DNA of 64,000 nucleotides from contig CANMUP010000003.1 in assembly GCA_947501105.1 (NCBI GenBank), positions 620,001-684,000 on the forward strand, written 5' to 3'. Shown piece after piece: positions 7,299-35,715 of this stretch. Origin of the DNA: an uncultured Flaviramulus sp. Its GTDB lineage: Bacteria > Bacteroidota > Bacteroidia > Flavobacteriales > Flavobacteriaceae. The position numbers and the translations under genes are program-made. The notes under the pieces are model-generated. The model made no database searches. It worked only from the letters and a program-made list of their open reading frames with translations, and was not told where the DNA came from. The first letter of the stretch is position 1. Each line of letters begins with the position of its first letter.

Positions 7299-8747
7299 AT
7301 GCTATTCAACTCTTTTGAGTTTCTTCTTTTTTTTCCAATAATTCTTATTGGGTTTTATGCTATTCCACATAAATATAGATGGTTATGGCTTTTATTAGGA
7401 AGCTATTACTTTTATATGGCACATGAGTTTGAGTTAGTTATTTTGCTATTTATCTCAACTTGTGTTGATTATTTTTGTGGACTTAGAATGCCCACTGCAA
7501 GCAAAAAAAATAAAATTTTTTACTTATTATTAAGCATATTTGTAAACCTTGGCATTTTATTTTCTTTTAAGTATTTATCCTTTTTCACTTCTTCTATTCA
7601 AGGATTACTTGGCTTTTTTGGAATAGTTATTTCTGAGACAGAAAACTTGGGCTCATATAACTTTAATCAAATATTAATTCCTGTTGGAATAAGCTTTTAT
7701 ACATTTCAAACTTTAAGTTATACTATAGATATTTACAGAGGCAAAATTGAACCTGAAAAGCATTTTGGAGTTTTTGCTCTTTATGTGTCCTTCTTTCCAC
7801 AATTAGTAGCTGGCCCTATTGAAAGGGCGTCTAGGCTAATCCCTCAGCTAAAAAAGAAAGTGGATATTAATCTTTCAAATATTAAAAAAGGCTTGATAAT
7901 GATGGCTTGGGGCTTTTTTCTAAAAGTAGTTGTAGCTGATAGACTTGGTGTATATGCAGACGCAGCTTTTAGTGATCCAGAATATAGTCACGGTTTACCT
8001 CTTTTTATAGGAGCTCTTTTTTTTGCAGGACAAATTTATTATGATTTTTCAGCATATACGTCTATTGCAATAGGGGCTGCAAAAACTATGGGCGTAGATT
8101 TAATGCAAAATTTTAACAGACCTTTTTTTGCTACATCCATTACCGATTTATGGAAACGTTGGCATATCTCTCTTGTAGAATGGTTGCGTGACTATTTGTT
8201 TATTCCCCTAGGAGGTTCAAAAGGCTCAAAACTTAAAACAATTAGAAACGTTTTTATTCTCTTTTTTGCAGTTGGTTTATGGCATGGAGCAAGCTGGACT
8301 TTCATAGTATGGGGGTTACTTAACGGAGCAATTTTAATATTAGAAAACATAACATCATCTTTAAGAATGCGTGTTTTTAAATTGTTACAATTAAAACAAG
8401 GTGCTATTAATTTTTTAGCTAGACTATTTGGAGTAAGTTATTTGCTAATGACATTGATTTTTTTTAGATCTCCCTCTATAAATCATGCCATATTATATAT
8501 TAAACAAATGTTTAATATTACTGGCTTACATGTTAATATATTGAATAATTATTTTGAGCTTGTTTTATGTTTTATTTTAATAGTTTTAGTGCAAACAATT
8601 CATTATTTTAAAGGTAATGATAAGGTTTATGAGCTGGTTACCCAACGTCCTAAATATATTAGGTATACCATGTATACTGCTTATGCTTTTATTATTGTTT
8701 TATTCGCTATAAATAGACAAAACACATTTATATATTTTCAATTTTAA
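7299..8747 (+). CDS. MBOAT-family O-acyltransferase (AlgI/DltB-like)
   Basis: This 482-residue polytopic protein carries the MBOAT signature set: PVGISFYTFQTLSYTIDIYRG, FPQLVAGPIERASRL, KRWHISLVEWLRDYLFIPLGG and the catalytic-histidine segment LWHGASWTF near residue 330. MBOAT enzymes such as AlgI and DltB move an acyl group from a cytoplasmic donor across the membrane onto a polymer. The next gene, an SGNH protein, starts two bases after the stop, the usual pairing. This is the first of three complete MBOAT/SGNH pairs in the window. Whether it carries acetyl or another acyl group cannot be told. Confidence 0.92.
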   Translation: MLFNSFEFLLFFPIILIGFYAIPHKYRWLWLLLGSYYFYMAHEFELVILLFISTCVDYFCGLRMPTASKKNKIFYLLLSIFVNLGILFSFKYLSFFTSSIQGLLGFFGIVISETENLGSYNFNQILIPVGISFYTFQTLSYTIDIYRGKIEPEKHFGVFALYVSFFPQLVAGPIERASRLIPQLKKKVDINLSNIKKGLIMMAWGFFLKVVVADRLGVYADAAFSDPEYSHGLPLFIGALFFAGQIYYDFSAYTSIAIGAAKTMGVDLMQNFNRPFFATSITDLWKRWHISLVEWLRDYLFIPLGGSKGSKLKTIRNVFILFFAVGLWHGASWTFIVWGLLNGAILILENITSSLRMRVFKLLQLKQGAINFLARLFGVSYLLMTLIFFRSPSINHAILYIKQMFNITGLHVNILNNYFELVLCFILIVLVQTIHYFKGNDKVYELVTQRPKYIRYTMYTAYAFIIVLFAINRQNTFIYFQF

Positions 8748-8748
8748 A

Positions 8749-9702
8749 ATGACTTTAAAAAAATTCATATTAAAACTATTATTATTTACAATGGGCTTTA
8801 TTGGGCTTTATTGCTTCTTTGTTGATAAACTATCAAAAGGACATGTTGATGAATATTATAATAAATTTACTCAAGAAGCTGGAGGATTAATAATAGGAAT
8901 ATCAAGAGCAAACATTGGAATTTCTCCATATGTTATCGAAGAAGAATTAATTAATATTGAGAAGCCTATAATAAATTTTGCAATAAATAGCTATCAATCT
9001 GGCTTTAGTGAGGTTTATTTTAATGCTATAAGAGAAAAAATAAAGAATAGAACAAACAAAGGTATATTCATTATATCTATAAATCCAGGAAACTTTTCTG
9101 CATTTTCTAATATTGACGATGATATTTTAACTACAGACAGTAATACTATTTTAGGTAAAACAAAAAATGTCGCATCTAATCCAAATTATAATTATATAAT
9201 TAACAATTATTCTGAACCATTATATAATGCATTCTATTCTAGAAAACCAGAACATCAAATCTCGCACAATAATGGGTGGAATGAAATAATACTTTATACA
9301 GAGCATGACACAATTACTAACAATACAATTAAATACTGGAAATCTCTTACCATAAAAAGAAATATTAAGAGAGTAAATACAGACGAAAAATCCCAATATC
9401 GTATTGATAGTTTTATAAAATTAATAAAGTTTTTAAAAGAGGAAGGGCACGTTTTTGTAATACGTATCCCGGCAGATACAGATATTATTAAATTTGAAAA
9501 CGATGTATGGCAAGGTTTTGACAAGGAGTTTGATAGTATCACGAAAAAATATAATGTTCCTTATTTTAATTATTCCAATAAATCTGATGAATATAAAACG
9601 TATGATGGTTCGCACTTAGAGTCTGAAAGCGCAAAAAAATTCACAAAACAACTAAGTTTGGACATAAAAAATTATCTGAAAGCAAAAAAATATAAAAATT
9701 AA
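8749..9702 (+). CDS. Membrane-anchored SGNH/DltD-like partner of MBOAT
   Basis: An N-terminal membrane segment (residues about 7-25) is followed by a GISRANIGISP motif. This corresponds to the GSSR-type block I of AlgJ/DltD-like proteins, with the serine kept. The C-terminus has YDGSHLES, which supplies the D-x-x-H pair. Such proteins face the periplasm and finish the acyl transfer begun by the MBOAT partner. The gene sits two bases behind the MBOAT gene and two bases before the first BioF2-like acyltransferase gene. Sequence similarity to the fragment at 1-165 is clear at the C-terminus. Confidence 0.75.
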   Translation: MTLKKFILKLLLFTMGFIGLYCFFVDKLSKGHVDEYYNKFTQEAGGLIIGISRANIGISPYVIEEELINIEKPIINFAINSYQSGFSEVYFNAIREKIKNRTNKGIFIISINPGNFSAFSNIDDDILTTDSNTILGKTKNVASNPNYNYIINNYSEPLYNAFYSRKPEHQISHNNGWNEIILYTEHDTITNNTIKYWKSLTIKRNIKRVNTDEKSQYRIDSFIKLIKFLKEEGHVFVIRIPADTDIIKFENDVWQGFDKEFDSITKKYNVPYFNYSNKSDEYKTYDGSHLESESAKKFTKQLSLDIKNYLKAKKYKN

Positions 9703-9703
9703 G

Positions 9704-10705
9704 GTGAATCCATATCTGCAAAATACATTCAAATCAATTTGGTTAACCCATTTTAATAATGGGAATACCGCCTTGGAGTTTAGCTTTGTTGATAAATTAA
9801 CTTTTGTAAAACACAAAATACTGCCCATATATTTTAATACAGGCGGAACAAATACAAAAGGTTTTAATTATAAATTATCTAACTCCCTTTTAAATGATTA
9901 CAAAAATAAAGTCTTCATAATTTGTGATGTGTACGGGTTTAATAATGAGAATTACTCAAAAAATGAGAAAATGGGTTGCTATAAAATTAAGCAGTACCCA
10001 GGTTATATTTGCGATTTGAGTAATCATCAAAGCCTAAAACATTACATGACTGATATTATTAGTAGAAAAAGTCGTTATAAGTTTAATAGTTATAAAAGGA
10101 ATTTAGAATCTACATACAAAATACATTATAAAATGTATTTAGATGATATCACTCCAGAGTTATATGAAAGTATCTTTTCTGATTTTCAACGTCTTTTAAA
10201 AAAACGTTTTTTAGATAAAAAAACTGTAAATAATAACTTAAACCCTGATGAATGGGCATTCTACAAAGAAGTTACTTTGCCAATGATGCTTAACAAAGAG
10301 GCGGGGCTTTTTGTGGTTTATGATGCCAATAAGCCAATAGCTATAACTTTGCTTAATTTTTCTACAAATACCATGTTTGATGTTATTAGAACTTTTGATA
10401 TTGATTATGCAAAATATAGACTAGGTTCTGTTAGCATCATGGGGCAAATAGATTGGTGCATAAAAAATAATATCAAAATTTTAGACTTTTCAAAAGGTTA
10501 TTTTGAATATAAAAAGCGATGGGCAAATAAGCCATATTGGTTTGAATATCATGTTTATTATGATAAAAAGTCAATTAAGGCAAAAACATTGGCTTTGTTT
10601 TATAAAAACTTTTTTTCCTTAAAATTATATCTTAGAAAAAAACACCTTACCAATTTTATACATGAATTGAGTTTTATTCTGAACAAAAAAAAATATGCTG
10701 AATAA
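9704..10705 (+). CDS. BioF2-like (GNAT-fold) acyltransferase, array copy 1
   Basis: This is a 333-residue protein with a GTG start two bases after the preceding stop. Family features shared across the array are visible. There is a basic N-terminal loop (KSRYKFNSYKRNLE), a KKRFLDKK helix and a VVYDANKPIAITLL strand pair. DIDYAKYRLGSVSIMGQIDWC and DFSKGYFEYKKRW follow. This pattern matches the Acetyltransf_6 (CelD/BioF2-like) branch of the GNAT superfamily, which includes enzymes acting on polysaccharides. It lacks the C-terminal module present in copies 3-8. Substrate is unknown. Position within a polysaccharide operon suggests N- or O-acylation of sugars. Confidence 0.75.
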   Translation: MNPYLQNTFKSIWLTHFNNGNTALEFSFVDKLTFVKHKILPIYFNTGGTNTKGFNYKLSNSLLNDYKNKVFIICDVYGFNNENYSKNEKMGCYKIKQYPGYICDLSNHQSLKHYMTDIISRKSRYKFNSYKRNLESTYKIHYKMYLDDITPELYESIFSDFQRLLKKRFLDKKTVNNNLNPDEWAFYKEVTLPMMLNKEAGLFVVYDANKPIAITLLNFSTNTMFDVIRTFDIDYAKYRLGSVSIMGQIDWCIKNNIKILDFSKGYFEYKKRWANKPYWFEYHVYYDKKSIKAKTLALFYKNFFSLKLYLRKKHLTNFIHELSFILNKKKYAE

Positions 10706-10749
10706 TTATTAATTAACTTCAGCCTTAAACAAAGCAAACTAGTTTAGAG

Positions 10750-11706
10750 ATGTTTCATAAACTTTTTCATTTTAAAAATGACCGTTTCATTTTTGATTTA
10801 TTTTTAGAAAATAAAATAAATTCGTTTTATGCATCTCATATTTTTAATAAACTAACAAACTCAAGGTTTGTTGCTAATTTAGTTTCATCTAATGTCTTTA
10901 AAACGATATACATCGTTAAAGATATTCCAGATTATTTAAGTTTAGAGTTTCAAAAACCAAATCAAACTTATTCCTTTAAAAAAGTAAAACAATACAAAGG
11001 GTATTTAGTGAATTTAGCTGAGTACAATAGCAACGAAGCTTTCATTGCCGAAAATTTAAATAAACGCAACAGAAAAAATTTATATTCAAAAGAAAGGAAG
11101 CTTAATAAAAATCATAATATTTCATCACAGATCTTCTTTGGAAGTATAAACAAAAAGGAATACGATAATATATTTGAAACCTTTTATATACTATTAGAGA
11201 ATAGGTTTAACGAAAAGCATACACATAATCGCTATTTATCAAACTGGAAAGATTTACAAGTATCTACATTTCAAAAAATCTTGGATAAGCAAGCATCATT
11301 GCACATTATTTATGATGATTTAAAGCCTGTAGCAATTACTTTAAATTTTCATAAAGGCGATATTGTTTTTAGCCATATACAAGCTTATGATATAAACTAT
11401 TCTAAGTACAATATGGGTGACATTTGTATGATGAATCAATTAGAGTGGCTAATAAATAATAACATTTCTGTATTTGACCTCTCTATGGGAAAAACTTATT
11501 ATAAAGAAAAATGGTGTAATTATACATATACATTTATATATCATGTTTTTTACAACCAAAAATCGTTGTTATCAAAAGTGTGTGCTAATATTATTGCGAA
11601 TGAGTTAAAGTTTATCCAGTTTTTAAGAGATAAAAATATTATTGGGAAGTTAATTAATTTTGATAAACTTCTTTATAACTATAAAAGCAACATTGCAAAA
11701 CAATAG
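10750..11706 (+). CDS. BioF2-like (GNAT-fold) acyltransferase, array copy 2
   Basis: This is a 318-residue paralogue of the preceding gene. It keeps the VKQYKGYLVNLAEYNS entry strand, the basic loop NKRNRKNLYSKERKL, DINYSKYNMGDICMMNQLEWL and DLSMGKTYYKEKW. Like copy 1, it ends shortly after the acyltransferase fold and lacks the extra C-terminal module. It is among the most diverged members at the basic loop. The next gene starts four bases after its stop. Function beyond family assignment is unknown. Confidence 0.72.
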   Translation: MFHKLFHFKNDRFIFDLFLENKINSFYASHIFNKLTNSRFVANLVSSNVFKTIYIVKDIPDYLSLEFQKPNQTYSFKKVKQYKGYLVNLAEYNSNEAFIAENLNKRNRKNLYSKERKLNKNHNISSQIFFGSINKKEYDNIFETFYILLENRFNEKHTHNRYLSNWKDLQVSTFQKILDKQASLHIIYDDLKPVAITLNFHKGDIVFSHIQAYDINYSKYNMGDICMMNQLEWLINNNISVFDLSMGKTYYKEKWCNYTYTFIYHVFYNQKSLLSKVCANIIANELKFIQFLRDKNIIGKLINFDKLLYNYKSNIAKQ

Positions 11707-11710
11707 TGAA

Positions 11711-12901
11711 ATGCTAAAGAAAATAAAACCAGAAGTTTTAGATGTTTTAAGCACTTTTCTTGAAAGGAAAAAGCCATTACCAATTTATGATAAAATTGTT
11801 AATACAATTTCTGGAATGTCTATTTATGAAGCTAAAAAAAGCAATGTCAAAAATGATAATTATCTATACTATATTTATGATTTTCCAGGATATTTAAAAG
11901 GCTCCGTCACCAAAAGTGGATGGAAATTAAAAACCATAAACACTTATAAAGGTTCTTTAATATTATTAAAAGACTATAAAAGCGTAGAAGATTATTTAAA
12001 GCATAAATTTAGTACAGGAAGAAGGTCAAAATTTAGAACTTACCAAAAAAGATTGGAAACCTGTTTTAATATTGAATACAAAACCTATTTTGGTAATATT
12101 TCTAAGAATGAGTATGAATTACTTTTTGAAGCTTTTCATGATATGACAAGAAAGCGCTTTTTAGAAAAGAAAACACAAAACTATGATTTATCTCGCTGGC
12201 ACATTTATCATGATATAGCATACCCACTAATCAATAGTAAGGAAGCCGCTTTGTTTGTTATTTTTAGTGATGGTAAGCCTATAAGTATTTGTTTAAATTT
12301 TGTTAGAGATAAAACCATTTATGGTTACTTAAGAACTTACGACACCGATTACTCTAAATTCTATTTAGGGTTTACCGATTTTATAAAACAGCTTCATTGG
12401 TGTTTTGAAAACAATATTGAGATTTTCGATTTATTAAAAGGAAGTTATCCATATAAAATGAGGTTAATTGATACTCAATACCCTTTTCAAAAACATGTTT
12501 TATACAATTCAAACTTTATTTTAACAACAATTTCTGCCAATTTAAACATTGCAAAAACTCAATCCTTTTATGCTTTGGTAAAAGTTTTAAAAAAGATGAA
12601 TGTAAATAAACTGTACTATAAATTTATAAATTATAAATACCGCAATAGAGAATTACAAGAATTGAAAAAAGGTTTTCAAAAAATTGATATTTTAGACAAT
12701 TTTAAAATAGAGCAAAATGAAGTATTAACAGAATTAAATCTTAACGATGATTCTTCAAAAACTTTAAAGAGATATGTATTTGATTTTTTGTATAGCAATC
12801 AAGAATTTATTCATAATATTAAGCTATTCAAGCATAAAAATGAATCCAACTCATATATAATCAAAGGAAAGAAAAACACTCGAAAAATAACGCTTATATA
12901 A
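11711..12901 (+). CDS. BioF2-like (GNAT-fold) acyltransferase, array copy 3
   Basis: The ATG at 11711 is chosen as start. An upstream TTG in the same frame (11660) would overlap the preceding gene, and the next paralogue begins with the same MLKKIKPE sequence. The 396-residue product has the family pattern: TYKGSLILLKDY, GRRSKFRTYQKRLE, DTDYSKFYLGFTDF, and DLLKGSYPYK. The last 45 or so residues form the additional module (FLYSNQEF ... YIIKGKKNTRKI). It is the closest relative of copy 4, which suggests a recent tandem duplication. Confidence 0.75.
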   Translation: MLKKIKPEVLDVLSTFLERKKPLPIYDKIVNTISGMSIYEAKKSNVKNDNYLYYIYDFPGYLKGSVTKSGWKLKTINTYKGSLILLKDYKSVEDYLKHKFSTGRRSKFRTYQKRLETCFNIEYKTYFGNISKNEYELLFEAFHDMTRKRFLEKKTQNYDLSRWHIYHDIAYPLINSKEAALFVIFSDGKPISICLNFVRDKTIYGYLRTYDTDYSKFYLGFTDFIKQLHWCFENNIEIFDLLKGSYPYKMRLIDTQYPFQKHVLYNSNFILTTISANLNIAKTQSFYALVKVLKKMNVNKLYYKFINYKYRNRELQELKKGFQKIDILDNFKIEQNEVLTELNLNDDSSKTLKRYVFDFLYSNQEFIHNIKLFKHKNESNSYIIKGKKNTRKITLI

Positions 12902-12908
12902 GCACCAC

Positions 12909-14078
12909 ATGCTTAAAAAAATAAAACCAGAAAATATAAATTACCTAAATACTTTTCTTGAAAAAAGAAAAGCAATACCTGTTTATAGTAGCCTTATAAA
13001 TACCATTTCTGGAGATACCTCTAATAAAAGCAATGAGACAAATATTATTAATAAAAGGAATATATACTGTATAAACGATTTCCCATCTTATTTAAAGGGA
13101 GATATTTCAGGCAATACTTGGAAAGCAAAAACTGTAAACACTTATAAAGGTTCATTAATCCTTCTAAAAAAATATGAAAACGCCAATGATTATTTAAAGA
13201 AGAAGTTTAAAACACCCAAGAGATTCAGAATTTATCAAAGCAAATTAGAAAACAGCTTTAATATTGAGTATAAGAGTTATTATGGAGATATCTCAAAAAA
13301 AGAGTACGATTATCTTTTTGAAGAATTTCACAAAATGCTTAAAACCAGATTTTTAGAAAAGAAAATCAAGAATCATGATTTGTCGCGCTGGGATATTTAT
13401 CGCGAGATTGCTTTTCCTTTAATTAAAAACAAGGAAGCCGTTTTTTTTGTTATTTATTCAGACAAAAAACCAATAAGTTTTTACTTAAATCTATTGCATG
13501 GTAAAACGGTATATGGTTATGTAAAAACTTATGATATTGATTACTCAAAATTTTCAATTGGTTTCATCAATTTTATTCAGCAACTACGCTGGTGTTTTGA
13601 AAATAACATTGAAGTTTACGATTTATTAAAAGGAAATTACGCTTACAAGAACAAGTTGATAGATCAAGAATTTTATTATCAAAAGCATATTATTTACAAT
13701 TCTAAATCTTTACTAGCTGTATTATCTGCTAATTTTATAATTGTAAAAAACCGACTGTTCTATAGCGCAGTAAATATTTTAAAAAAGTTAAAGGTTGATT
13801 TATTATATCATAAGTTTTCAAATTATATATATCAAAATAAATTTGTAAATGATACTCAAAGAGTTTTGATTACTAATTGTTCTGAAAAACCTAGTGAGCA
13901 ATTAGATCAAATAGATTTAGATGATGAGGCTTTTAGTTTTTTAAAAAGAATTACCTATAAATTTTTATACCATAATGACGAATCATTGGAAACAGTTAAA
14001 TTATTTAAGTTTAAAAATGAAGTAAAAACCTATCTTATCTCGGGGAAAAAGCAAATGCAAAAAATAACGTTTCAATAA
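12909..14078 (+). CDS. BioF2-like (GNAT-fold) acyltransferase, array copy 4
   Basis: This 389-residue protein is very similar to copy 3 along its whole length, including the MLKKIKPE start, the TYKGSLILLKKY strand, the LSRWDIYREIAFPLI helix and the DLLKGNYAYK motif. The C-terminal module is present (FLYHNDES ... YLISGKKQMQKITF). Only seven bases separate it from copy 3. As with the other members, an acyl-thioester donor and a sugar acceptor are plausible from family and context but are not shown by the sequence. Confidence 0.75.
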   Translation: MLKKIKPENINYLNTFLEKRKAIPVYSSLINTISGDTSNKSNETNIINKRNIYCINDFPSYLKGDISGNTWKAKTVNTYKGSLILLKKYENANDYLKKKFKTPKRFRIYQSKLENSFNIEYKSYYGDISKKEYDYLFEEFHKMLKTRFLEKKIKNHDLSRWDIYREIAFPLIKNKEAVFFVIYSDKKPISFYLNLLHGKTVYGYVKTYDIDYSKFSIGFINFIQQLRWCFENNIEVYDLLKGNYAYKNKLIDQEFYYQKHIIYNSKSLLAVLSANFIIVKNRLFYSAVNILKKLKVDLLYHKFSNYIYQNKFVNDTQRVLITNCSEKPSEQLDQIDLDDEAFSFLKRITYKFLYHNDESLETVKLFKFKNEVKTYLISGKKQMQKITFQ

Positions 14079-14080
14079 TT

Positions 14081-15259
14081 TTGGCCAAAGTTAAAAAAAT
14101 AACATTCTTAAAAGCTTTCACTGAAAATAGCTTACCTCCTATTTGCAGTAAAATTATTTATGGCAAAAATTTCTATTATAATACAAATACTGAGTTAGAC
14201 ATAGATTTAAAGAAACAAGTACTAATGTTTAAAGATGTTTCTGATTATGTAGATATAGAACTATTAGAACAGTCAAAAAGCATAGTTGTTAATAAAATAA
14301 AAACTATCAAAGGGCATTTAGTAGAACTTCATTTATTTAGTAATATAGTAGAGTATTTGGAAACTAATTTTAATTCCAAAAGCAGATCAAACTTTAGGCG
14401 CTATGAAAATAGGCTAAAAACATGTTTCAATATTAAATATGTATCCTATTATGGAGAGATTACAAAGCAAGAATACGACAGACTTTTTATTATTTTAAAA
14501 AGAATATTGGTTAGGAGGTTTACCGAGAAACAAGAATATAATTATGAATTGCAACATCTTGAAGGCTATCGCGATGTTTTATATGATATGATATTGGAAA
14601 AAAGAGCCAATTTATTTGTAATTTATGATGGTGATAAGCCTATTAGCGTTAGAATAAATATGTGCAAAAAAAATATAGCTTATTATATTTTAAGTGGCTA
14701 TGATATTGATTATTCAAAATTTCATTTAGGTTTTATTGATATGCTAAAAAATATAGAATGGTGTATAGATAATAACTTTGAGATTTACGACCTTTTAAAA
14801 GGTTATGATTATTATAAATCTAAATGGTCTACTAAAAAACATGATTATTATAATCACATAATTTATAATTCAAATTCAATAGCGACATTGCTAATTGGGC
14901 AATATATTACTACAAAGGAAATTATAAAGTATAAAGGCTACAGAGTTTTAAAAAAGTATAATTTACACACAAAATACAAAAGCATAAAAAGGCATGTATT
15001 TGGGATTAGAGCCTTTACTAGCAAAAAAAAGTTACCATCTGTATTAATAGAAAACGATACAAAAAGTACTGATCAAACAATTGAAATAAATATTGATAAA
15101 AATGATGAATATGCATTTTTAAGAAAACCTGTATACAACTTACTTTTTCTAAATAATGAATCTATCAATAATGTTACTATTAGCAAGTTTACAGGCTCAG
15201 AGAACACATTTAAAGTTCAACTTAAAAATAAAAGCAAACTCTTAAAAACCAATAATTAA
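14081..15259 (+). CDS. BioF2-like (GNAT-fold) acyltransferase, array copy 5 (TTG start)
   Basis: The start is a TTG two bases after the preceding stop. The first in-frame ATG would remove about 48 residues that align with the paralogues' N-termini. The product is 392 residues and has IKGHLVELHLF, SKSRSNFRRYENRLKTCF, DIDYSKFHLGFIDML and DLLKGYDYYKSKW. The C-terminal module is recognisable (LLFLNNESINNV) but its last strand is degenerate (LKNKSKLLK in place of GKxxxQKITF). Function as for the other array members. Confidence 0.72.
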   Translation: MAKVKKITFLKAFTENSLPPICSKIIYGKNFYYNTNTELDIDLKKQVLMFKDVSDYVDIELLEQSKSIVVNKIKTIKGHLVELHLFSNIVEYLETNFNSKSRSNFRRYENRLKTCFNIKYVSYYGEITKQEYDRLFIILKRILVRRFTEKQEYNYELQHLEGYRDVLYDMILEKRANLFVIYDGDKPISVRINMCKKNIAYYILSGYDIDYSKFHLGFIDMLKNIEWCIDNNFEIYDLLKGYDYYKSKWSTKKHDYYNHIIYNSNSIATLLIGQYITTKEIIKYKGYRVLKKYNLHTKYKSIKRHVFGIRAFTSKKKLPSVLIENDTKSTDQTIEINIDKNDEYAFLRKPVYNLLFLNNESINNVTISKFTGSENTFKVQLKNKSKLLKTNN

Positions 15260-15287
15260 AAAAGTATTTAAATAATATTAGCATTAA

Positions 15288-16502: not shown

Positions 16503-16512
16503 CAAACCTTAA

Positions 16513-26119: not shown

Positions 26120-26368
26120 ATGAATAGAGAAGAAATTTTAGATAAAGTTACCGTAGCTTTTACAAATATATTAGAACATAACAACTTCCAACTAAAAGGC
26201 GAAACAACAGCAGATGATGTTGATGGTTGGGAATCTATAACACATATGATGATCATTTCTGAAATCGAAAAGACTTTTAGTATCAAGTTTAAGCTGATGG
26301 ATTTAATGAATATGAATAGCGTTGGAGACTTATTAAACACTATAGAATCTGAATTATTAATAAATTAG
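26120..26368 (+). CDS. Acyl/peptidyl carrier protein
   Basis: This 82-residue acidic helical protein carries VDGWESITHMMIISEIEKTF, in which the serine of W-E-S is the expected phosphopantetheine site at the start of helix II. It is the natural partner of the adenylation enzyme four bases upstream. The pair mirrors DltA and DltC. A phosphopantetheinyl transferase is not in this window. Confidence 0.9.
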   Translation: MNREEILDKVTVAFTNILEHNNFQLKGETTADDVDGWESITHMMIISEIEKTFSIKFKLMDLMNMNSVGDLLNTIESELLIN

Positions 26369-27739: not shown

Positions 27740-28384
27740 ATGAAAAAGCCTATTAGTAAAAAAAAGGTAAGAATTTATGGAGCTGGTGGCCATTCTCAAG
27801 TTATAAAAGAGGTTTTGGAAAAAAATAATTATGATGTAACAGAAACGTTTGATGATAAGCCCAAAAATGTTCATCATGCTTCTAAGAATGTTTCTATTGG
27901 TGCGAGAAAAAATATAGACAGTTTCCCTCATGTTGGCGATCCTGTTATAATAGCAGTTGGAATAAATTCTGAAAGAGCAGAAATAGCTGAATTCTTAAAA
28001 TGTGATTACGAGAAGGCCGTTCATCATTCAGCAATAATATCCGATACTTCTAAAATTGGAGAAGGAACTGTTGTATTTGCAGGCGCAATTATTCAACCTA
28101 ATACCTCTATAGGAAAGCATGTTATTATAAATACAGGAGCCAGTGTCGATCATGATAATATAATTGGAGATTTCGCACATGTATCCCCTAAAGCAGCTTT
28201 ATGTGGACATGTGGAAGTTGGTGAAGGCTCTCATGTAGGTGTAGGAGCTGTCGTTATCCCTAAAGTGAAGATTGGCAAATGGTGCACTATTGGAGCTGGA
28301 ACAATTGTTTTAAAAGATGTTCCAGATTATTCAACACTCGTAGGAAACCCTGGAGTAGTAATTAAAACAAAAAAACCAAATTAA
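27740..28384 (+). CDS. NeuD/PglD-type acetyltransferase, second copy
   Basis: This 214-residue protein has the RIYGAGGHSQVIKEVLEKN N-terminal subdomain and hexapeptide repeats (GEGTVVFAGAIIQPN, ASVDHDNIIGDF with the active-site histidine, CGHVEVGEGSHVGVGAVV). It is diverged from the copy at 26410. Together with the phosphoglycosyl transferase in front it forms a second PglC/PglD-like module. The product would be an N-acetylated amino sugar precursor, if the family function holds. Confidence 0.88.
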   Translation: MKKPISKKKVRIYGAGGHSQVIKEVLEKNNYDVTETFDDKPKNVHHASKNVSIGARKNIDSFPHVGDPVIIAVGINSERAEIAEFLKCDYEKAVHHSAIISDTSKIGEGTVVFAGAIIQPNTSIGKHVIINTGASVDHDNIIGDFAHVSPKAALCGHVEVGEGSHVGVGAVVIPKVKIGKWCTIGAGTIVLKDVPDYSTLVGNPGVVIKTKKPN

Positions 28385-28386
28385 AA

Positions 28387-31053
28387 GTGGACACATACAG
28401 TACAACATCGGATATTACATTTATTGGCTCTGGAATTTCAACCTCTTTCAGTATTATAAACTTTTTAGACCTTATTGATACTAGAGCTAGTATAAATGAT
28501 AAAATATCTATAAACATAATCGAGAAATATTCTGAGTTTAACATAGGAGTTCCTTATGGCTCAAGATCTGGTTTTTCTACACTTTTAATAACTTCTTTAA
28601 GAAACTTCCTAATTGAGCCAGAACTTAGTTTATTCATCAAGTGGCTCAATAAAAACAAAACATGGCTTTTAGAAAAGTTTGAAAAAGAAGGAGGAGTTTT
28701 ATCAAAAAAGTGGCTTTTAGATAACAAAGAGGATATTCAAAATAACAAATGGAAAGACCTTTTTATTCCAAGACGCTTTTTTGGTTGTTATATTAATTTA
28801 AGAGTTAATAATAAAATCAAAGAACTATCCGAAAAAGAATGCATTAATGTTAATTTTATTACTGGCGAAGTAATCGATATTGAAAAAAACAAAAGCATAT
28901 ATAAAATCTCATTGGAGAATAATTCTGAAATCATTTCTAAAAAAGTAGTTTTATCTGTAGGGTCCCTACCTATAAACTATTTGTGGAAAAATAAAGATTT
29001 AATAGAAGAGAAAAATTTAATGTTTGTTAATAACCCATATAAACCAGCATTAGGGGTTGTTTTAAATAAAATTAATCACTTTATAAAAAATAGAAATGGC
29101 GAGAAGCCTGCTAATATCCTTATAGTTGGGGCTAATGCTAGTGCATTAGAATTGATATACAAGATTAATGACTTCTCAAAAGAGGAATACAAAAATACGA
29201 ATTTCACATTTCTCTCAACTCAAGGCACAATTCCCGATGCAGTAATTGATGAAGAAAGGCAAAAAAAGTTTATACCAAATTATTTGAATGAATTAAAAAA
29301 TGAAAAAAACATAACTGCAAAATCTATTGCTGATGCTACTTTTAAAGATCTTGATAAAGCCGATGAAATTAATTTAGGGGCTGCTTCAACTGTAGATATT
29401 GTCTCGAAATATTTTGGCGTTTTACTAGAAGGTCTTAATTCTGATGAACTTGAAATATTTGCATGCCACTACGGAAATCAAATTGGAAAAAGGCAGCGTT
29501 GCGCTGGCTTACATTACTCTAATGTTATAGCTGAGTTAGAAAAGCAAAATAGATTTGAACATATAGCAGGTCGTTTTAATAACTTAAATCTTGACAATAA
29601 TGGTGATTATAATTTGGAGTATATAGATACATATTCAAAAAAAAAGAAAATACATAAAGAGCCTTTTCATATTATTATTAATTGTATTGGAAGTAAGAAT
29701 CTAAATAGTAAAGACCTACCTCTACTACATCAAAATTTAATTAAAAAGAATTATTGCGTTCCTAATCAATCAAATATTGGATTTCACGTAAACAAATCCT
29801 TAGAGGCTAGTGAAAACCTACATATAATGGGGCCTATGCTAGCAGGTAACGTAGTAGGCAATAGAGCGGTGTGGCACGTTGAGCATTGTGGAAGAATTAT
29901 TTGGCTTTCTAAAATATTATCAAAGATTCTATTTGACGACATTTATGGTAACAATGATTATACTCCAAAAAGGTATGAATTGGAAATTAATAGTTTGAAT
30001 AATGATACTAGCATAGAAAAATACAGACAGCTATTAACAGAAAACTGGAATAATAATATATATTATGCCTACAATCATTTAAAATATTTTGAAAATGAAA
30101 CAAATGCTCTAAAATATTTTTTGTTCAAAATTAATGATTCTACTAAAATATTAATGCCAATAATTTTGAGACAAGTAGAAGTTAACGGCGAAAAAACAAG
30201 GCATTTTGATGCTATTACTCCTTATGGGTATAGTGGACCTCTATATAGCAGTGGTGTAACTGAAGAATGTCTAAAAGAGTTTTGGAAAGCAGTTGATAAT
30301 TGGTATAAAGAAAATAATGTCATTACAGAATTTATAAGATTTAGCTTAAACGGAAACTATTCTGGGTATAACGGATTGTTAATAAACACCCTTAATAATG
30401 TAAAAGGCATACTTGTAAATGATTTCGATCTCCATTGGCTATCATTCTTACCCAAAGTACGAAATAATTATCGCAAAGCAGCTTCATATAATTTAGAGGT
30501 TAAAATTTTTGACACTCAAGATATCAATGAAAAAACTATAAAAGTGTTTTTTGATATCTATACAGAAACAATGAAAAGGCTTAATGCCAAAGCTATATAC
30601 TTCTTTTCATTAAATTATTTTAAAAGCTTAATATTAAATAATTTGAATGAGTTTTCAATAGCATTTGCTTACCTAGATGACATTCCTATTTCAACAGAAC
30701 TAATAATAAAAAACGACAAAACAATATTTGCATTTCTTGGTGGTACAGATGCAAATTATTATAGTTATAGACCTAATGATTTTTTAAGGGTAGAAATTAT
30801 AAAATGGGCGGTAAAAAACAATTTAAAATATTATGTATTAGGTGGTGGTCTAAAAGATAAAGATGGCCTGTACAAAAGTAAAAAGGCACTTTTTCCTAAA
30901 AACGATGATGCCATATTTTACACTGGAAGGAAAATAATTGATTATGAAGTATATGAAAGGTTATGTGTAGAACATATAGATGATTATGCAGAAATACATA
31001 AAGAAGAATTAAAGAATTACTTTTTCCCTCTATATAGATTTAATAATAGATAA
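28387..31053 (+). CDS. Fusion: FAD/NAD(P)-binding domain plus FemAB-like acyltransferase
   Basis: The GTG at 28387 lies two bases after the preceding stop and gives 888 residues. Residues 1-520 or so form an FAD/NAD(P)-binding unit. It has the dinucleotide loop FIGSGISTSFS near the N-terminus, a second loop ILIVGANASALEL in the middle, and NCIGSKNL and LHIMGPMLAGNVVGNRAVWH toward its end. This resembles the NAD_binding_9 type found with N-hydroxylases and related flavoenzymes. The remaining 350 residues or so match a FemAB-like GNAT protein: ITPYGYSGPL, YTETMKRLNAKAIYFFS, VLGGGLKDKDGLYKSK and a terminal FFPLYRFN. That half is homologous to the free-standing gene at 32263-33312. The fusion suggests that oxidation and acyl transfer act on the same substrate, which is inference. 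Confidence 0.75.
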   Translation: MDTYSTTSDITFIGSGISTSFSIINFLDLIDTRASINDKISINIIEKYSEFNIGVPYGSRSGFSTLLITSLRNFLIEPELSLFIKWLNKNKTWLLEKFEKEGGVLSKKWLLDNKEDIQNNKWKDLFIPRRFFGCYINLRVNNKIKELSEKECINVNFITGEVIDIEKNKSIYKISLENNSEIISKKVVLSVGSLPINYLWKNKDLIEEKNLMFVNNPYKPALGVVLNKINHFIKNRNGEKPANILIVGANASALELIYKINDFSKEEYKNTNFTFLSTQGTIPDAVIDEERQKKFIPNYLNELKNEKNITAKSIADATFKDLDKADEINLGAASTVDIVSKYFGVLLEGLNSDELEIFACHYGNQIGKRQRCAGLHYSNVIAELEKQNRFEHIAGRFNNLNLDNNGDYNLEYIDTYSKKKKIHKEPFHIIINCIGSKNLNSKDLPLLHQNLIKKNYCVPNQSNIGFHVNKSLEASENLHIMGPMLAGNVVGNRAVWHVEHCGRIIWLSKILSKILFDDIYGNNDYTPKRYELEINSLNNDTSIEKYRQLLTENWNNNIYYAYNHLKYFENETNALKYFLFKINDSTKILMPIILRQVEVNGEKTRHFDAITPYGYSGPLYSSGVTEECLKEFWKAVDNWYKENNVITEFIRFSLNGNYSGYNGLLINTLNNVKGILVNDFDLHWLSFLPKVRNNYRKAASYNLEVKIFDTQDINEKTIKVFFDIYTETMKRLNAKAIYFFSLNYFKSLILNNLNEFSIAFAYLDDIPISTELIIKNDKTIFAFLGGTDANYYSYRPNDFLRVEIIKWAVKNNLKYYVLGGGLKDKDGLYKSKKALFPKNDDAIFYTGRKIIDYEVYERLCVEHIDDYAEIHKEELKNYFFPLYRFNNR

Positions 31054-31082
31054 ACCATACTCAGATAAATTACTACCTCCCA

Positions 31083-32228
31083 ATGAATAAAAAGAATAGC
31101 GACTTTTTTTTTGAATATTACGAAAAATGTAGGATTCCAGATTCTTTTTCAGAGGTTTTTTATACTCAAGAAAAAACGGTTTACAAAAACACAAATTATC
31201 AAGAAAATAAAAATTTAAGCCATATTAATTCTGTTATGTTTGTTCCTGCATATATTAATCCGAGAATTAATAATAGCCTGTTTAAGGCGAAAAAAATTAA
31301 TCAGTTTTTTAAAGGCTACGCTATTTTTTTAGATGAATTTAATTCAATTGATGAATACTTAAAGTATCGCTTTAAAAAAAATGCAAAATCTATACGAAAA
31401 CGAATTAAAAGATTAGAGCTTAGTTTTGCAATAAGTTATCACTTCTATTTTGGAGAGATTTCTGAAGAAGACTATCACTTTTTTATGGACACTTTAAAAA
31501 AGATGATAATAAATAGATTTAAAGAAAGAAACGATGTTAGTCAAAACTTATTGAACTGGGATCACTATCATAAAATATTCTTTGATTTAATTAATGACAA
31601 AAAAGCATCTCTATTTGTAATAAAAAATGGAAAAGAGCCTATTTGTATATCAGTAAGTAATCACTTTAATGGAAAGATGTTTAGCTCTGTATCGTCATAT
31701 GATATTGATTTTGCAAAATTCAGTTTGGGTAGCATTGAAATTTATAAAAAATTAGAGTGGTGTTTAGAAAACAACCATAACACTTATGAATTTGGTATGG
31801 GAGATTTGAGTTATAAGCGTGAATGGTCTAATAATGTATACAATTTTGAGCACCAAATTATTTATCCAAAAAAATCCATTATAGCAAAAATAAAAGCTAA
31901 TACAGAATTTATAAAAGTAAATATAAAAGAAGGTATTTACAAGATAGCCTACGTACGTTATAAAAAATGGAAAGCTAAACGAAAAAAGAATATTCCAATT
32001 CAATTAAGCTACAATATGCTTTCTGGAGATGATATAGTAGACTATAAAAATCTTAGCAAAGTCGATTATAATTTAGAGAGTCATTCATTTTTAAGAAAAG
32101 TGGTTTTTGATTTTTTATATTCTAACATGGAAAATATCGGTAATGTTGATGTATTTGAATTATCAAAATTAGAAAAATCGTATTTAATTATTGGACAATC
32201 TAGCAAACAGAAAATCATATTTGATTAA
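31083..32228 (+). CDS. BioF2-like (GNAT-fold) acyltransferase, dispersed copy 8
   Basis: This is a 381-residue paralogue of the 9704-17664 array. It shows FKGYAIFLDEFNSIDEY, KKNAKSIRKRIKRLE, DIDFAKFSLGSIEIYKKLEWC and YEFGMGDLSYKREW, and the C-terminal module (FLYSNMENIGNVDVF ... YLIIGQSSKQKIIF). It is closest to array copy 7. Its position 13 kb away, between the FAD-FemAB fusion and a FemAB-like gene, links the array to the ligase/carrier section of the operon. Confidence 0.75.
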   Translation: MNKKNSDFFFEYYEKCRIPDSFSEVFYTQEKTVYKNTNYQENKNLSHINSVMFVPAYINPRINNSLFKAKKINQFFKGYAIFLDEFNSIDEYLKYRFKKNAKSIRKRIKRLELSFAISYHFYFGEISEEDYHFFMDTLKKMIINRFKERNDVSQNLLNWDHYHKIFFDLINDKKASLFVIKNGKEPICISVSNHFNGKMFSSVSSYDIDFAKFSLGSIEIYKKLEWCLENNHNTYEFGMGDLSYKREWSNNVYNFEHQIIYPKKSIIAKIKANTEFIKVNIKEGIYKIAYVRYKKWKAKRKKNIPIQLSYNMLSGDDIVDYKNLSKVDYNLESHSFLRKVVFDFLYSNMENIGNVDVFELSKLEKSYLIIGQSSKQKIIFD

Positions 32229-32262
32229 CCAAAGGCTAGGTTTATAAAAGGCACATATAATA

Positions 32263-33312
32263 GTGAGTAACAACAAATTAATAGCAAATTTTAAAATCAT
32301 TAATAAAAAGAATGAATGGCAAAATACCCTAGAGGATATTGGTCATTACGATTTTTATCATACTTATGATTATCATTATTTATCTAAATCTGAGAGTGAA
32401 AAAGCTATATTGTTAAAATATGAAGAAGGAAATAAAATGATTTGCTTCCCTTTGATAATAAGAAAAATTGGTGATTCAGGCTTTTTTGATGCAACCTCTG
32501 TTTATGGCTATGCGGGTCCGTTACAAAAGAATATTGACAAAAATTTTCAAAATGATGTTTTTGCTGAAGCATTAAATAATTACTTCATTAATGAGAAAAT
32601 AATATCAGTTTTTTCAAGATTAAGCCCATATATAGCAAATCAAGATGTTGTGCTTAACCAAATTGGAGAAATAAAAAAATTGTGGAAAGTTGTTAATATA
32701 GATTTAACTATTGGTTTAAAAAAACAACGCGAACTATACTCTCGAACCACAAAGCGATATATAAATAAATGCAGAAAACTATGTGATGTAATAATAAGCG
32801 ATTCATCATCAAGCATCGATGATTTTGTTTCCTTGTATTATGAAAACATGAACCGTGTAAATGCAAAGAAAGATTATTATTTTTCTAAAGAATATTTTTT
32901 GCAATTTATTAATGGGGAAGATTACAAAACTGATATAATGTTTGCAGTTTTTAAAGAAACCGGTGAAATTATTTCTGCAGCATTAATGGTAAAAACTAAT
33001 GATATTGTCCAATATCATCTGTCGGGAACAAAAGCTGAATATTTACATTTATCTCCTATTCGATTGCTAATAGACGAAATGAGGGTTAATGCTACTCAAG
33101 AAAGCAAAACTTATTTTAATCTTGGAGGCGGTTTAGGAAATACAGACGATGGCTTATTTAAATTCAAATCGTCCTTCTCAAAAGATTATAAACCATTTAA
33201 AATATGGAAACACATAATAAATAATAATGTTTATGATAACTTGGTAGATCAATATGCGACTTCAGATTGTGATTCAAGCTTTTTTCCATTATACAGATGC
33301 AATGGACTATAA
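32263..33312 (+). CDS. FemAB-like GNAT acyltransferase (GTG start)
   Basis: This 349-residue protein has SVYGYAGPLQKN, YSRTTKRYINKCRKL, YYENMNRVNAKKDYYFS, YHLSGTKAEYLHLSPIRLL and FNLGGGLGNTDDGLFKFKSSF. This is the FemAB/BioF2-like pattern in which a lysine-rich loop after the GGG motif contacts the donor. It ends with FFPLYRCN, the same ending as the C-terminal half of the fusion protein at 28387-31053, to which it is homologous. Its stop overlaps the convergent minus-strand SGNH gene by six bases. It is the last gene of the long plus-strand operon. Confidence 0.75.
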   Translation: MSNNKLIANFKIINKKNEWQNTLEDIGHYDFYHTYDYHYLSKSESEKAILLKYEEGNKMICFPLIIRKIGDSGFFDATSVYGYAGPLQKNIDKNFQNDVFAEALNNYFINEKIISVFSRLSPYIANQDVVLNQIGEIKKLWKVVNIDLTIGLKKQRELYSRTTKRYINKCRKLCDVIISDSSSSIDDFVSLYYENMNRVNAKKDYYFSKEYFLQFINGEDYKTDIMFAVFKETGEIISAALMVKTNDIVQYHLSGTKAEYLHLSPIRLLIDEMRVNATQESKTYFNLGGGLGNTDDGLFKFKSSFSKDYKPFKIWKHIINNNVYDNLVDQYATSDCDSSFFPLYRCNGL

Positions 33313-34257
33313 CGTTTCTAATTGTTTAGTTAAATAATTAGCAATTAAATGCCTACCATGATTATTCCAATGCCTATCATATATTAAAGTCGTTGGTGTT
33401 TTAGATTTATTTAGCGCATTATAAAAATCTATGTACTTATAATTATTATTATTTAAATACTCTAAAAATATTGGAGGTGTAATATTTGAATCTAAAAGAA
33501 GTACGAACCTTTTTTTATCGTAACCATATTTTTTTATTAGAGATTTAAAATTTTCAATATATATCAAATGTGTTTTTTGAATATCCTCCTTAGTCTTTTC
33601 TTTAACAGTTTTGTTTGGTTTTTCTTTAAAAAGAGCTGACATTCTACCTATAGCATTCATTACAGGGTCAAAAAGTCCACTATTCTGTGCATATACTATT
33701 AGTTTAATTTTACGAATACTATTGTACAAAGGCGTTTCCAAATGCATTCGGTCTTGAATTACGCTATATTCTCCTCTTGTCAAATCATTTTCAAATTTTA
33801 AGCCTAGAACAACATAGTCTATTTTATCAAACATATCTTCATAGGCGTGAATTAAGTGCAACTGATCTGCAAAATCATAGCCAGCATACCCAAATTCATA
33901 TACTTCAACACTATCTAACCTATTCTCCATTTTTTTACCAATAGAATTATAATAATGCTGATGAAAACCTTCAATAAAAGAATCGCCCACTAAAGCTATT
34001 TCTTTTTTATTATCAGATGGTGCAAACTCTCTATACGAATTATAACCAGAGCTATTAATTTTATACTCTGAAAAATTTTGCCTCCTAATTCCTGTTACAG
34101 AAACTCCTGCCTGATTTGGCACCCACTTTTCTACATTAAACTCATCAACATAACGCGAAGGATAGTCTTTAGTTAAATGAAAAACACGTATTGCAACTTC
34201 TAATACTAATAGTATTAAAAAGCCGTATAAGATGGTTTTAAATAGTAATTTTTTCAT
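33307..34257 (-). CDS. SGNH/GDSL-like partner of MBOAT (third copy)
   Basis: The protein (316 residues) has one N-terminal membrane helix, then a periplasmic domain with IALVGDSFIEGF (GDS block I) and DRHWNNHGRHLIANYL (D-x-H block V). It is a canonical GDSL-like version, unlike the GISR and GSSH versions in the other pairs. The gene lies six bases downstream of the third MBOAT gene on the minus strand. It probably acts as an esterase or acyltransferase on the exported polysaccharide. Confidence 0.78.
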   Translation of the reverse strand: MKKLLFKTILYGFLILLVLEVAIRVFHLTKDYPSRYVDEFNVEKWVPNQAGVSVTGIRRQNFSEYKINSSGYNSYREFAPSDNKKEIALVGDSFIEGFHQHYYNSIGKKMENRLDSVEVYEFGYAGYDFADQLHLIHAYEDMFDKIDYVVLGLKFENDLTRGEYSVIQDRMHLETPLYNSIRKIKLIVYAQNSGLFDPVMNAIGRMSALFKEKPNKTVKEKTKEDIQKTHLIYIENFKSLIKKYGYDKKRFVLLLDSNITPPIFLEYLNNNNYKYIDFYNALNKSKTPTTLIYDRHWNNHGRHLIANYLTKQLETL

Positions 34258-34263
34258 TTTAGC

Positions 34264-35715
34264 TTAAAATTGAAAATAAATAAACGACCTATCGATGTTA
34301 TCATCATAAAACAGCAACATAAATAGAATTATAATAGTGTATGCAATAAACCTCACTATTTTTGATTTGAATTTAAAAGGAGAACGTTCGTCTTTTCTAA
34401 TTCTATATTCATATATAACAAAAAGTATTATAAGAATGTAATAATCAATCATTCTGTAACCCATCGGGTGCTGATAAACTTCGTAAGTAAAGTTCGAAAT
34501 TATTATTTTTATAAATGCAAAGGCATCAGTAATAGATTCCGATCTAAAAAATATTCGTGAAAATGTTACTATTCCAAAGGTTAAAACTACCTGCCCAATT
34601 TCTTTTAATGATGGAAAAATGGAATGTTCCCCTACTACACTATTTTTATAAATAGTGTTTCTACCCAATAAAAATACGGGAATAAATGCTAGAGCGTGAA
34701 ATGCTCCCCAAAAAATAAAGGTCCAGTTTGCACCATGCCAAAACCCACTGACAAGAAAAATAATAATAATATTTCTAACAGATTTAAGCTTACTAACACG
34801 TGATCCTCCTAACGGTATATAAACGTAGTGTCTAAACCATGTTGAAAGTGAGACATGCCACCTTTGCCAATATTCCGCAACATTTCTTGAAAAGTTAGGA
34901 AATTTAAAGTTAGACATTAATTCTATGCCAAATAACTTTGCAGTACCAATTGCAATATCTGAATATCCACTAAAATCACCATACACTTGAAAGCTAAATA
35001 AGGTCACTCCTAAAATTAGTGTAGATGCAGGGTAATTAGCATAATTTGCAAAAACATCATCTACTATTGGTCCTAAAGAATCTGCAATAACAACCTTCTT
35101 AAAAAGCCCCCACAATATTAATTTTAAACCACTTACAGTTTGGTTATAGCTGAATTTTCTTTTATTGGTAATTTGTTTTAATAAATTAGAAGCACGTTCA
35201 ATTGGTCCTGCAACTAATTGTGGAAAAAAGCTAACAAATGCTGCAAATGATAAAAAGTCTCTAGTTGGTTTTAACTTTCTGTAATAAATATCAAACGAAT
35301 AAGACATAGTTTGAAAGGTGTAAAACGATATACCTACTGGTAAAATAACACGCAATGTCCAAGTGCTTTCCATGTTGTAACCAAACATTGAAAACATATC
35401 TACCCAAGAATCAACAAAAAAATTGTAATACTTAAAAAAACCTAAGAGACCAACATTAAAAAAAACGCTTACCCATAGCCAAGACTTTCTTATAGATTTC
35501 TTTTCGTTAGCATCAATTTTTATTCCTACTATATAATCTACTGTGGTACTAAGTAATATAAGTGAAAGAAATCTCCAATCCCACCAGCCATAAAATAAAT
35601 AACTAGCGAAAAGTAGTAGTAAGTTTTGTGCCTTTAGACTCTTTTTAAAAACTAACCAGTATAGCGAAAAAACTATAGCTAAAAATATAAAAAACTCTAA
35701 AGAATTAAATACCAT
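34264..35715 (-). CDS. MBOAT-family O-acyltransferase (third copy)
   Basis: The protein has 483 residues and many membrane spans. It has PVGISFYTFQTMSYSFDIYYRKL, FPQLVAGPIERASNL, YWQRWHVSLSTWFRHYVYIPLGG and FWHGANWTFIFWG. It is more similar to the second copy than to the first. With its SGNH partner it forms a two-gene minus-strand unit that converges on the main operon, so its expression can be set independently. It marks the right edge of the polysaccharide cluster. Confidence 0.92.
   Translation of the reverse strand: MVFNSLEFFIFLAIVFSLYWLVFKKSLKAQNLLLLFASYLFYGWWDWRFLSLILLSTTVDYIVGIKIDANEKKSIRKSWLWVSVFFNVGLLGFFKYYNFFVDSWVDMFSMFGYNMESTWTLRVILPVGISFYTFQTMSYSFDIYYRKLKPTRDFLSFAAFVSFFPQLVAGPIERASNLLKQITNKRKFSYNQTVSGLKLILWGLFKKVVIADSLGPIVDDVFANYANYPASTLILGVTLFSFQVYGDFSGYSDIAIGTAKLFGIELMSNFKFPNFSRNVAEYWQRWHVSLSTWFRHYVYIPLGGSRVSKLKSVRNIIIIFLVSGFWHGANWTFIFWGAFHALAFIPVFLLGRNTIYKNSVVGEHSIFPSLKEIGQVVLTFGIVTFSRIFFRSESITDAFAFIKIIISNFTYEVYQHPMGYRMIDYYILIILFVIYEYRIRKDERSPFKFKSKIVRFIAYTIIILFMLLFYDDNIDRSFIYFQF

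Follow-up and report, generated by a model that had tools for sequence, protein, structure and literature searches.

We analysed a 64,000-nt stretch of DNA (the window) from a 4.19 Mb Flavobacteriaceae-type genome (uncultured Flaviramulus sp., contig CANMUP010000003.1; GC content in the window ~25–37%) and found that it is a piece of a modular glycan locus, in which three modules are resolved. Our chief subject is a row of eight paralogous acyltransferase genes, the array, accompanied by FemAB-type genes; in a judgement that we consider evenly balanced, we read their products as FemX-like and probably aminoacyl-transfer RNA (tRNA)-dependent transferases that would act stepwise on a glycan precursor. 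Separable from these are an amino-acid ligase and carrier with an adjoining transferase, GNATx, and an operon in dlt order at the window's left edge. The listed genes from 7299 to 33312 all lie on the plus strand with short gaps between them, and because genes of the cluster recur in the same order in related genera, their clustering is not due to chance. The parts named by an earlier note on this DNA (ligase 24613, carrier 26120, three MBOAT/SGNH pairs, a fusion of a flavin adenine dinucleotide (FAD)-type and a FemAB domain, and about ten GNATs) are all present and correctly placed, the GNAT-fold proteins numbering 11 (eight array paralogues, FemAB 32263, the FemAB half of 28387, and GNATx 23491). 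Its view that the region specifies a surface polysaccharide, includes genes for carrier-linked (amino)acylation and holds a true acyltransferase expansion is borne out.

All eight array proteins score above the cut-off of PF13480 (Acetyltransf_6) and share about 27–52% identity; seven are encoded in tandem at 9704–17664 and one at 31083. In a tree of 43 sequences, members at one array position (G1 to G8; genome handles have three digits) group together across genera, least firmly for G3 (94/91). In a larger tree of 98 sequences, G3 and G4 are not separated from each other, and a G1 clade of 23 sequences (100/99) contains the array member that comes first after FemAB in the loci examined. Among the loci of nine relatives, five carry MBOAT2, SGNH2, the array and GT4 in this order (G240, G019, G070, G006, G072), with G2 or G4 missing in some; the block is absent from G177, G121, G218 and G220, and G8 is kept in G177 and G218.

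We then searched 299 genomes of the family, scoring at most five or six candidates per genome, so that array counts are lower bounds. The array family (E ≤ 1e-20) occurs in 68 genomes and FemAB (E ≤ 1e-30) in 77, with 47 in common (p 1.4e-18, kinship uncorrected). For 42 genomes, places of both were available (65 array and 44 FemAB places among the matches listed, the distances being upper bounds). An array gene and a FemAB gene stand no more than 2.5 kb apart in 34 of these genomes, with 25 of the 34 nearest pairs within 150 bp and 7 on opposite strands. Across a phylum-wide sample of 296 genomes, the array was matched (E ≤ 1e-20) in 5 and GNATx (E ≤ 1e-15) in 2, own genome included each time and all in the same family.

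To describe array neighbourhoods we used the best 80 of 122 loci from an alignment scan with the first member (g1), a sample that leaves out loci lacking a g1-type member. Their titles name Flavobacteriaceae bacteria, Zobellia, Cellulophaga, Arenibacter, Maribacter, Flavivirga, Winogradskyella, Flagellimonas and others, genera that we take to be Flavobacteriaceae; the one exception is an assembled genome, L125, which bears the title Algicola, a name that the taxonomy places among the Gammaproteobacteria. A FemAB-type gene precedes g1 in 53/80 loci (directly before it in 49, up to five genes off in 4), MBOAT2 lies within two genes before g1 in 20/80, and neither is found in 7/80. When every array-type gene on the plus strand is counted from g1 onwards, whether or not the genes adjoin, within 10 kb flanks that cut some arrays, 17 loci have one member, 24 two, 9 three, 3 four, 3 five, 15 six and 9 seven. 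Order is conserved: reciprocal best hits across 694 pairs of arrays with at least three members were concordant 3102 times and discordant 37 times, and 1582 times versus 37 when the first position was left out.

A JmjC-type hydroxylase gene lies near 9/30 arrays with at least four members versus 0/50 with fewer, and the FAD–FemAB fusion near 10/30 versus 2/50; the window's own Cupin_8/JmjC-type hydroxylase (36012–36860) may oxidise aminoacyl groups. In G177 the fusion is split into two genes, whereas G006 and G072 have a longer version (about 1235 amino acids) that matches FemAB a second time (L040, L046, L049). By eye, ATP-grasp-like and HAD-like genes may stand ahead of FemAB in the array loci L056, L060, L062, L069, L070 and L082, some of which may also carry formyltransferase-, methyltransferase- or pyridoxal phosphate (PLP)-decarboxylase-like genes.

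Fold and residue conservation bear on the chemistry of these proteins. G4, the only array member folded, gave a model with a predicted local distance difference test score (pLDDT) of 90.4, and its structural neighbours rank as follows: FemX; 2hqy (function unknown); Sbb17 and Sba18, which are aminoacyl-tRNA-dependent peptide synthases in complexes with streptothrisamine according to their PDB titles; MprF; and, lower in the ranking, FemA, ATE1 and acetyl-coenzyme A (CoA) enzymes. The top Foldseek matches were 4ii9, 7z5y and 7z6a (E 5e-8 to 7e-8, template modelling (TM) scores 0.37–0.44). The FemAB-type family PF02388 (cut-off 24) matches 32263 with 32.2 bits and the C-terminal half of 28387 with 30.9 bits and none of G1–G8, and profile–profile comparison relates array to FemAB at 66% probability (E 5.5e-5). 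The FemAB profile matches FemX at 1.4e-14 and aligns a lysine, K302 in 32263 and invariant in 22/22 FemAB rows, to chain position 306 (4ii9) or 305 (1ne9); from this alignment we take it to correspond to Lys305 of FemX, which has a catalytic role (PMC12945691). A lysine, K247 in G4, stands at a comparable place in 43/43 array rows, an equivalence judged by eye, the profile alignment ending short of it. The CoA motif [QR]xxGx[GA] was found in 0/43 array rows at the place examined; PF13480 proteins may lack this motif in general. Array proteins carry a charge of +4 to +7 per 100 amino acids, and PglC-type proteins and some other neighbours are equally basic. Our reading is that the donor is most likely aminoacyl-tRNA and that the transferases would act stepwise.

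Several observations weigh against this reading. The TM scores of G4 to FemX are low (0.37–0.44), acetyl-CoA GNATs (PamZ, VipF) also match its fold below 1e-3, and the array profile has no match at E ≤ 1 among PDB sequences. FemAB is without a match at 1e-30 in 21/68 array genomes, and the array pairs compared for order are non-independent; the conserved order may equally reflect arrays inherited as blocks. No tRNA genes lie inside arrays; three tRNAs were found in 60 of the 80 loci, synthetase genes not having been searched for, and a tRNA-Glu in L110 stands ~0.5 kb before the FemAB gene. Finally, Pfam classes the array as acetyltransferases (PF13480). This classification of all eight members, like the absence of tRNA genes within arrays, suits a rival that we regard as possible, if doubtful, namely that the array consists of ordinary acyl-CoA-dependent N-acyltransferases (PF13480, CelD/HfsK-like), each acylating its own amino sugar or its own site in a large repeat unit, their number following glycan structure. 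HfsK itself, a FemX-like GNAT of unsettled chemistry, is required for the Caulobacter holdfast (PMC5362036). Set against such a role are the nearest folds, mostly aminoacyl-tRNA enzymes, the absent CoA motif (0/43 at the place examined), the FemAB gene that often stands directly before g1, and an own cluster with fewer glycosyltransferase than acyltransferase genes.

One further point against aminoacylation concerns Cellulophaga fucicola DSM 24786, which has an array (L089) and which we take to be the same strain as NN015860. The published O-polysaccharide of C. fucicola NN015860 is built of Gal, Glc and pseudaminic acid (Pse), without amino acids (PMC3210612). The NeuB-family genes of C. fucicola belong to a glycan locus of their own, on a different contig from the array, so the array may serve another glycan. 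That separate locus could make the Pse-containing O-polysaccharide, a point in favour of a further alternative, in which the modules decorate a glycoprotein glycan or other conjugate rather than an O-antigen or capsule. We consider this unlikely: genes of the Poly_export/SLBB (Wza-type), Polysacc_synt (Wzx-type) and EpsG polymerase families and, by eye, a Wzc-like gene are present in the own cluster, and Wza-, Wzx- and Wzc-type genes with a polymerase are typical of capsule or O-antigen export.

These export genes belong to a cluster that extends at least 17 kb upstream of the window (40 kb upstream were read). Pfam matches in this upstream stretch identify the Wza-type and Wzx-type genes and glycosyltransferases, the Wzc-like gene having been recognised by eye; PglF-, PglE- and TviB/TviC-like genes are also found there. 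The neighbours that the earlier note had listed beside the dlt-type parts include, as it said, PglC-like and glycosyltransferase genes, while the polymerase (EpsG, 211–1311) lies outside the range (7299–35715) to which it was assigned. The product of 21422, tried as a polymerase, was rejected as such, being a PaaK-like adenylating enzyme, a second of which is encoded at 3365.

Turning to the carrier-fed modules, the ligase 24613 matches PF00501 (194 bits) and, under the cut-off of 317.4, the amino-acid adenylation domain TIGR01733 (297.3 bits), and the carrier 26120 matches PF00550 (24 bits, cut-off 20.8). A search of the genome found six AMP-binding places, one of them 4 kb upstream of the window. 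As a candidate DltA, 24613 was rejected (TIGR01734 249.8 bits, cut-off 559.85). Relatives of this ligase at E ≤ 1e-60 occur in 18/299 family genomes and GNATx matches at E ≤ 1e-20 in 16/299. Strong GNATx matches (at least 359 bits) comprise 16 copies in 15 genomes, every one with the ligase, and 15 of the 16 copies lie within 200 bp of it; the remaining copy (G215) is ~6 kb off, with a carrier gene beside it. The three ligase genomes lacking a strong GNATx are the most distant (31–39% identity), and the match in G162 lies inside a 5240-codon frame. In the loci read, a carrier gene follows the ligase, except for the first of two ligases in G218. There (L044, L045), the GNATx–ligase pair is tandem-duplicated and a carrier gene follows the second copy only.

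An alignment of 14 ligases shows no variation in the adenylation core motifs or in the Asp at position 194. Because this Asp, which we take to be the residue binding the alpha-amino group, is kept, an amino acid is the likely ligase substrate, and bulky residues in the specificity pocket, judged by eye only, suggest a small one. The best PDB sequence relative is linear gramicidin synthetase subunit A, the second domain of which is presumably glycine-activating, and 4oxi, presumably AlmE, is a sequence relative of both this ligase and the upstream one. The GNATx model (pLDDT 79) is nearest to N-myristoyltransferases (NMTs) and tandem GNATs; a search of PDB sequences with the GNATx profile returned nothing meaningful. 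We read GNATx, ligase and carrier as a putative carrier-to-acceptor transfer system in the cytoplasm, with AlmEFG-like logic and a transferase of another family.

The operon at the window's left edge (−3942 to 165), which the earlier note did not include, encodes a ligase (−3942 to −2455), carrier, MBOAT and DltD-like SGNH protein, in the order dltA-C-B-D. The four dlt protein types that the note had seen are thus present and in dlt order, in this operon rather than around 24613 and 26120. The same four-gene order is found in 8/8 distinct clusters with a second-ligase match of at least 57% identity (own, G240, G019, G070, G215, L076, L098, L150), and weaker relatives of the second ligase (30–32%; L085, L087, L105, L126, L147) stand in different surroundings. 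Scores against the DltA and DltB equivalogs are below cut-off (270.5 of 559.85 and 171.5 of 375 bits). By eye, the loop FSLFCGEALP of the upstream ligase corresponds to YCSFGGGALH in the in-window ligase; the CGE loop is, we assume, DltA-like, its Cys presumably equivalent to C268 of the B. cereus DltA pocket. In G070 (L037:11609-15942), the dlt-ordered operon is directly followed by a gene for a 576-amino-acid protein unlike any of the own cluster and then by carrier, MBOAT and SGNH1-like genes.

That ligase and carrier form one Dlt-like system loading a single acyl or aminoacyl group, to be distributed by the MBOAT/SGNH pairs and the GNAT array as the earlier note had proposed, is improbable: all the protein types do stand in one cluster, ligase and array co-occur above chance (13 genomes, Fisher p 5e-6, kinship uncorrected), and a dlt-ordered operon directly precedes MBOAT2–SGNH2–array in G240 and two Flavivirga loci (L076, L098), but the ligase has its own adjoining GNATx, many arrays adjoin FemAB in stretches where reading found no carrier gene, and 55 of the 68 array genomes have no 24613-type ligase, which is why we rejected a single carrier pathway feeding the array and find carrier-fed acylation by the array unsupported. 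In the window, the neighbours of the 24613/26120 pair are GNATx and PglD, not MBOAT or DltD-like genes, and GNATx stands beside the pair in relatives too. Conserved association is strong for ligase, carrier and GNATx and moderate for ligase and array, 5 ligase genomes being without an array match.

The MBOAT/SGNH pairs within the range 7299–35715 could be ordinary O-acylation enzymes. Each of the three MBOAT genes there (7299, 19004, 34264) encodes a WHG motif, and a fourth MBOAT/SGNH pair lies upstream. Among their SGNH-like partners, 8749 and 20417 have no Pfam match and 33307 sub-threshold matches only. All three have G-x-S near the N-terminus, and 8749 and 20417 a C-terminal D-x-x-H, motifs that we take as the SGNH signature; 33307 ends in D-x-H-W, presumably as in AlgJ/AlgX.

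We propose that the locus would make a surface glycan of the Wzx/Wzy type. Among its precursor sugars are probably a 4-amino-4,6-dideoxy sugar (PglF-, PglE-, PglD- and PglC-like genes) and N-acetylgalactosaminuronic acid (GalNAcA; TviB/TviC-like genes), and its amino or hydroxyl groups would be decorated by the separable modules. In the first, the ligase would adenylate a small amino acid and load the carrier, from which GNATx would transfer it in the cytoplasm. The upstream dltA-C-B-D operon would load a second amino acid, D-alanine or similar, and pass it across the membrane onto the glycan. In the third, a FemAB-type transferase and the ordered FemX-like GNATs would add aminoacyl groups, most likely from aminoacyl-tRNA, successively to a lipid- or nucleotide-linked sugar, and the resulting side chain, aminoacyl or a short peptide, may owe its structure to the length and content of the array. 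What the analysis shows directly is gene content, positional orthology of array members, adjacency, fold class and the conserved lysine; donor, acceptor, order of action and product are inferred from these. A bolder version, which we hold only tentatively and think rather doubtful, is a template-free assembly line: FemAB would start and the collinear array extend a peptide built from aminoacyl-tRNA, the number and kind of genes spelling the length and sequence of the side chain, strains varying by gain and loss of array genes, and JmjC- and FAD-type enzymes oxidising the product further.

Several known systems resemble parts of this locus. FemXAB and MurMN share with the array a FemX-like fold, the FemX-type lysine, several paralogues and, plausibly, a lipid-linked sugar as acceptor; here, by contrast, up to eight paralogues stand in conserved order in a Gram-negative glycan locus, and they are PF13480-type sequences, most with an extra C-terminal stretch. 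The streptothricin-type synthases (Orf11, Sbb17, Sba18) also have a FemX-like fold, and Orf11 aminoacylates an amino-sugar intermediate (PMC12945691); these are single enzymes of antibiotic pathways, whereas ours form arrays in polysaccharide loci. In AlmEFG of Vibrio cholerae, a ligase, a carrier and a transferase place glycine on lipid A (PMC12930378). The GNATx module likewise sets amino-acid ligase, carrier and transferase side by side. It differs in lying in a glycan cluster and in its transferase, which is tandem GNAT/NMT-like rather than of the AlmG family, a lysophospholipid-acyltransferase family. With dltABCD the upstream operon shares the order ligase, carrier, MBOAT, SGNH, but it scores well below the NCBIfam DltA and DltB cut-offs, its host is Gram-negative, and the in-window ligase is without the pocket Cys; Dlt operons also occur in Photorhabdus and Bordetella.

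The predicted O-antigen R-group genes (wfp) of Flavobacterium psychrophilum comprise PglF/E, a PglD-like acyltransferase, a dedicated carrier and a PglC-like initiator (PMC6519341), all gene kinds of our locus too. Their R group is predicted to come from ketoacyl synthases, and the word "ligase" is absent from the available text of PMC6519341. The own locus shares protein kinds with a further system as well. In XrtA/PEP-CTERM loci, ligase, carrier and FemAB genes are associated, the same kinds as here; membership was rejected on TIGR03098 (179.6 of 592.35 bits) and TIGR03019 (33 of 260.35 bits). Single FemX-like GNATs in polysaccharide synthesis (HfsK), predicted carrier-fed sugar acylation in Flavobacterium and AlmEFG are thus already known, and other glycan gene systems are described in PMC12419801. 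A literature search by title and start of abstract found no account of glycan loci with ordered FemX-like arrays, nor of aminoacylated or peptide-bearing glycans from such arrays. FemX-type chemistry is known so far from peptidoglycan, antibiotics and lipids; if our reading is right, marine Flavobacteriaceae use it for surface glycans that bear peptide or aminoacyl groups, the genes offer a direct handle by which the length of an array can be set against that of its product, and carrier-fed (Dlt/AlmE-like) and tRNA-fed aminoacylation are separated within one glycan locus. With its several separate acylation modules, the ordered FemX-like row among them, the cluster may represent a surface sugar decorated in a new way.

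Table 1. Genes of the glycan locus in the window (positions in nt; G1–G8, array members).
Feature	Position	Strand	Basis or remark
3' end of DltD-like SGNH1, last gene of dltA-C-B-D-ordered operon	1..165	+	no Pfam match
EpsG-family (Wzy-like) polymerase	211..1311	+	Pfam
PaaK/CapK-like adenylate-forming enzyme a	3365..4768	+	
MBOAT2 (DltB/AlgI-type)	7299..8747	+	Pfam; WHG motif
SGNH2, partner of MBOAT2	8749..9702	+	32–33% identity to DltD-like SGNH1
G1, first array member (G1 clade)	9704..10705	+	PF13480
G2	10750..11706	+	PF13480
G3	11660..12901	+	PF13480
G4, fold modelled, FemX-like	12909..14078	+	PF13480
G5	14081..15259	+	PF13480
G6	15288..16502	+	PF13480
G7	16513..17664	+	PF13480
GT4 glycosyltransferase	17764..18921	+	
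MBOAT3	19004..20413	+	Pfam; WHG motif
SGNH3	20417..21355	+	no Pfam match; SGNH-type motifs
PaaK/CapK-like adenylate-forming enzyme b	21422..22753	+	
PglC-type phosphoglycosyltransferase 1	22876..23481	+	
GNATx, tandem-GNAT/NMT-like transferase, ligase partner	23491..24588	+	weak GNAT match; model
DltA/AlmE-like amino-acid adenylation ligase	24613..26115	+	PF00501, TIGR01733
Carrier protein	26120..26368	+	PF00550; phosphopantetheine site read as GWES
PglD/NeuD-type acyltransferase 1	26410..27078	+	
PglC-type phosphoglycosyltransferase 2	27108..27716	+	
PglD/NeuD-type acyltransferase 2	27740..28384	+	
FAD/NAD(P)-binding domain (N-terminal) fused to FemAB-type transferase (C-terminal)	28387..31053	+	PF13454 (N-terminal); FemX-type Lys kept
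G8, array paralogue	31083..32228	+	PF13480
FemAB-type transferase, FemX homologue	32263..33312	+	
SGNH4	33307..34257	-	D-x-H-W motif; only sub-threshold Pfam matches
MBOAT4	34264..35715	-	Pfam; WHG motif
Cupin_8/JmjC-type hydroxylase	36012..36860	+	also near long arrays elsewhere

Two further features of the window recur in relatives. A right-handed beta-helix gene (PF13229; 4833–6851, minus strand), perhaps encoding a glycan epimerase or lyase, is found in the loci of 8/9 relatives, and genes for an Lrp regulator and an M14 carboxypeptidase (36914–38621, minus strand) flank the glycan locus in 7/9, whether or not the array is present.

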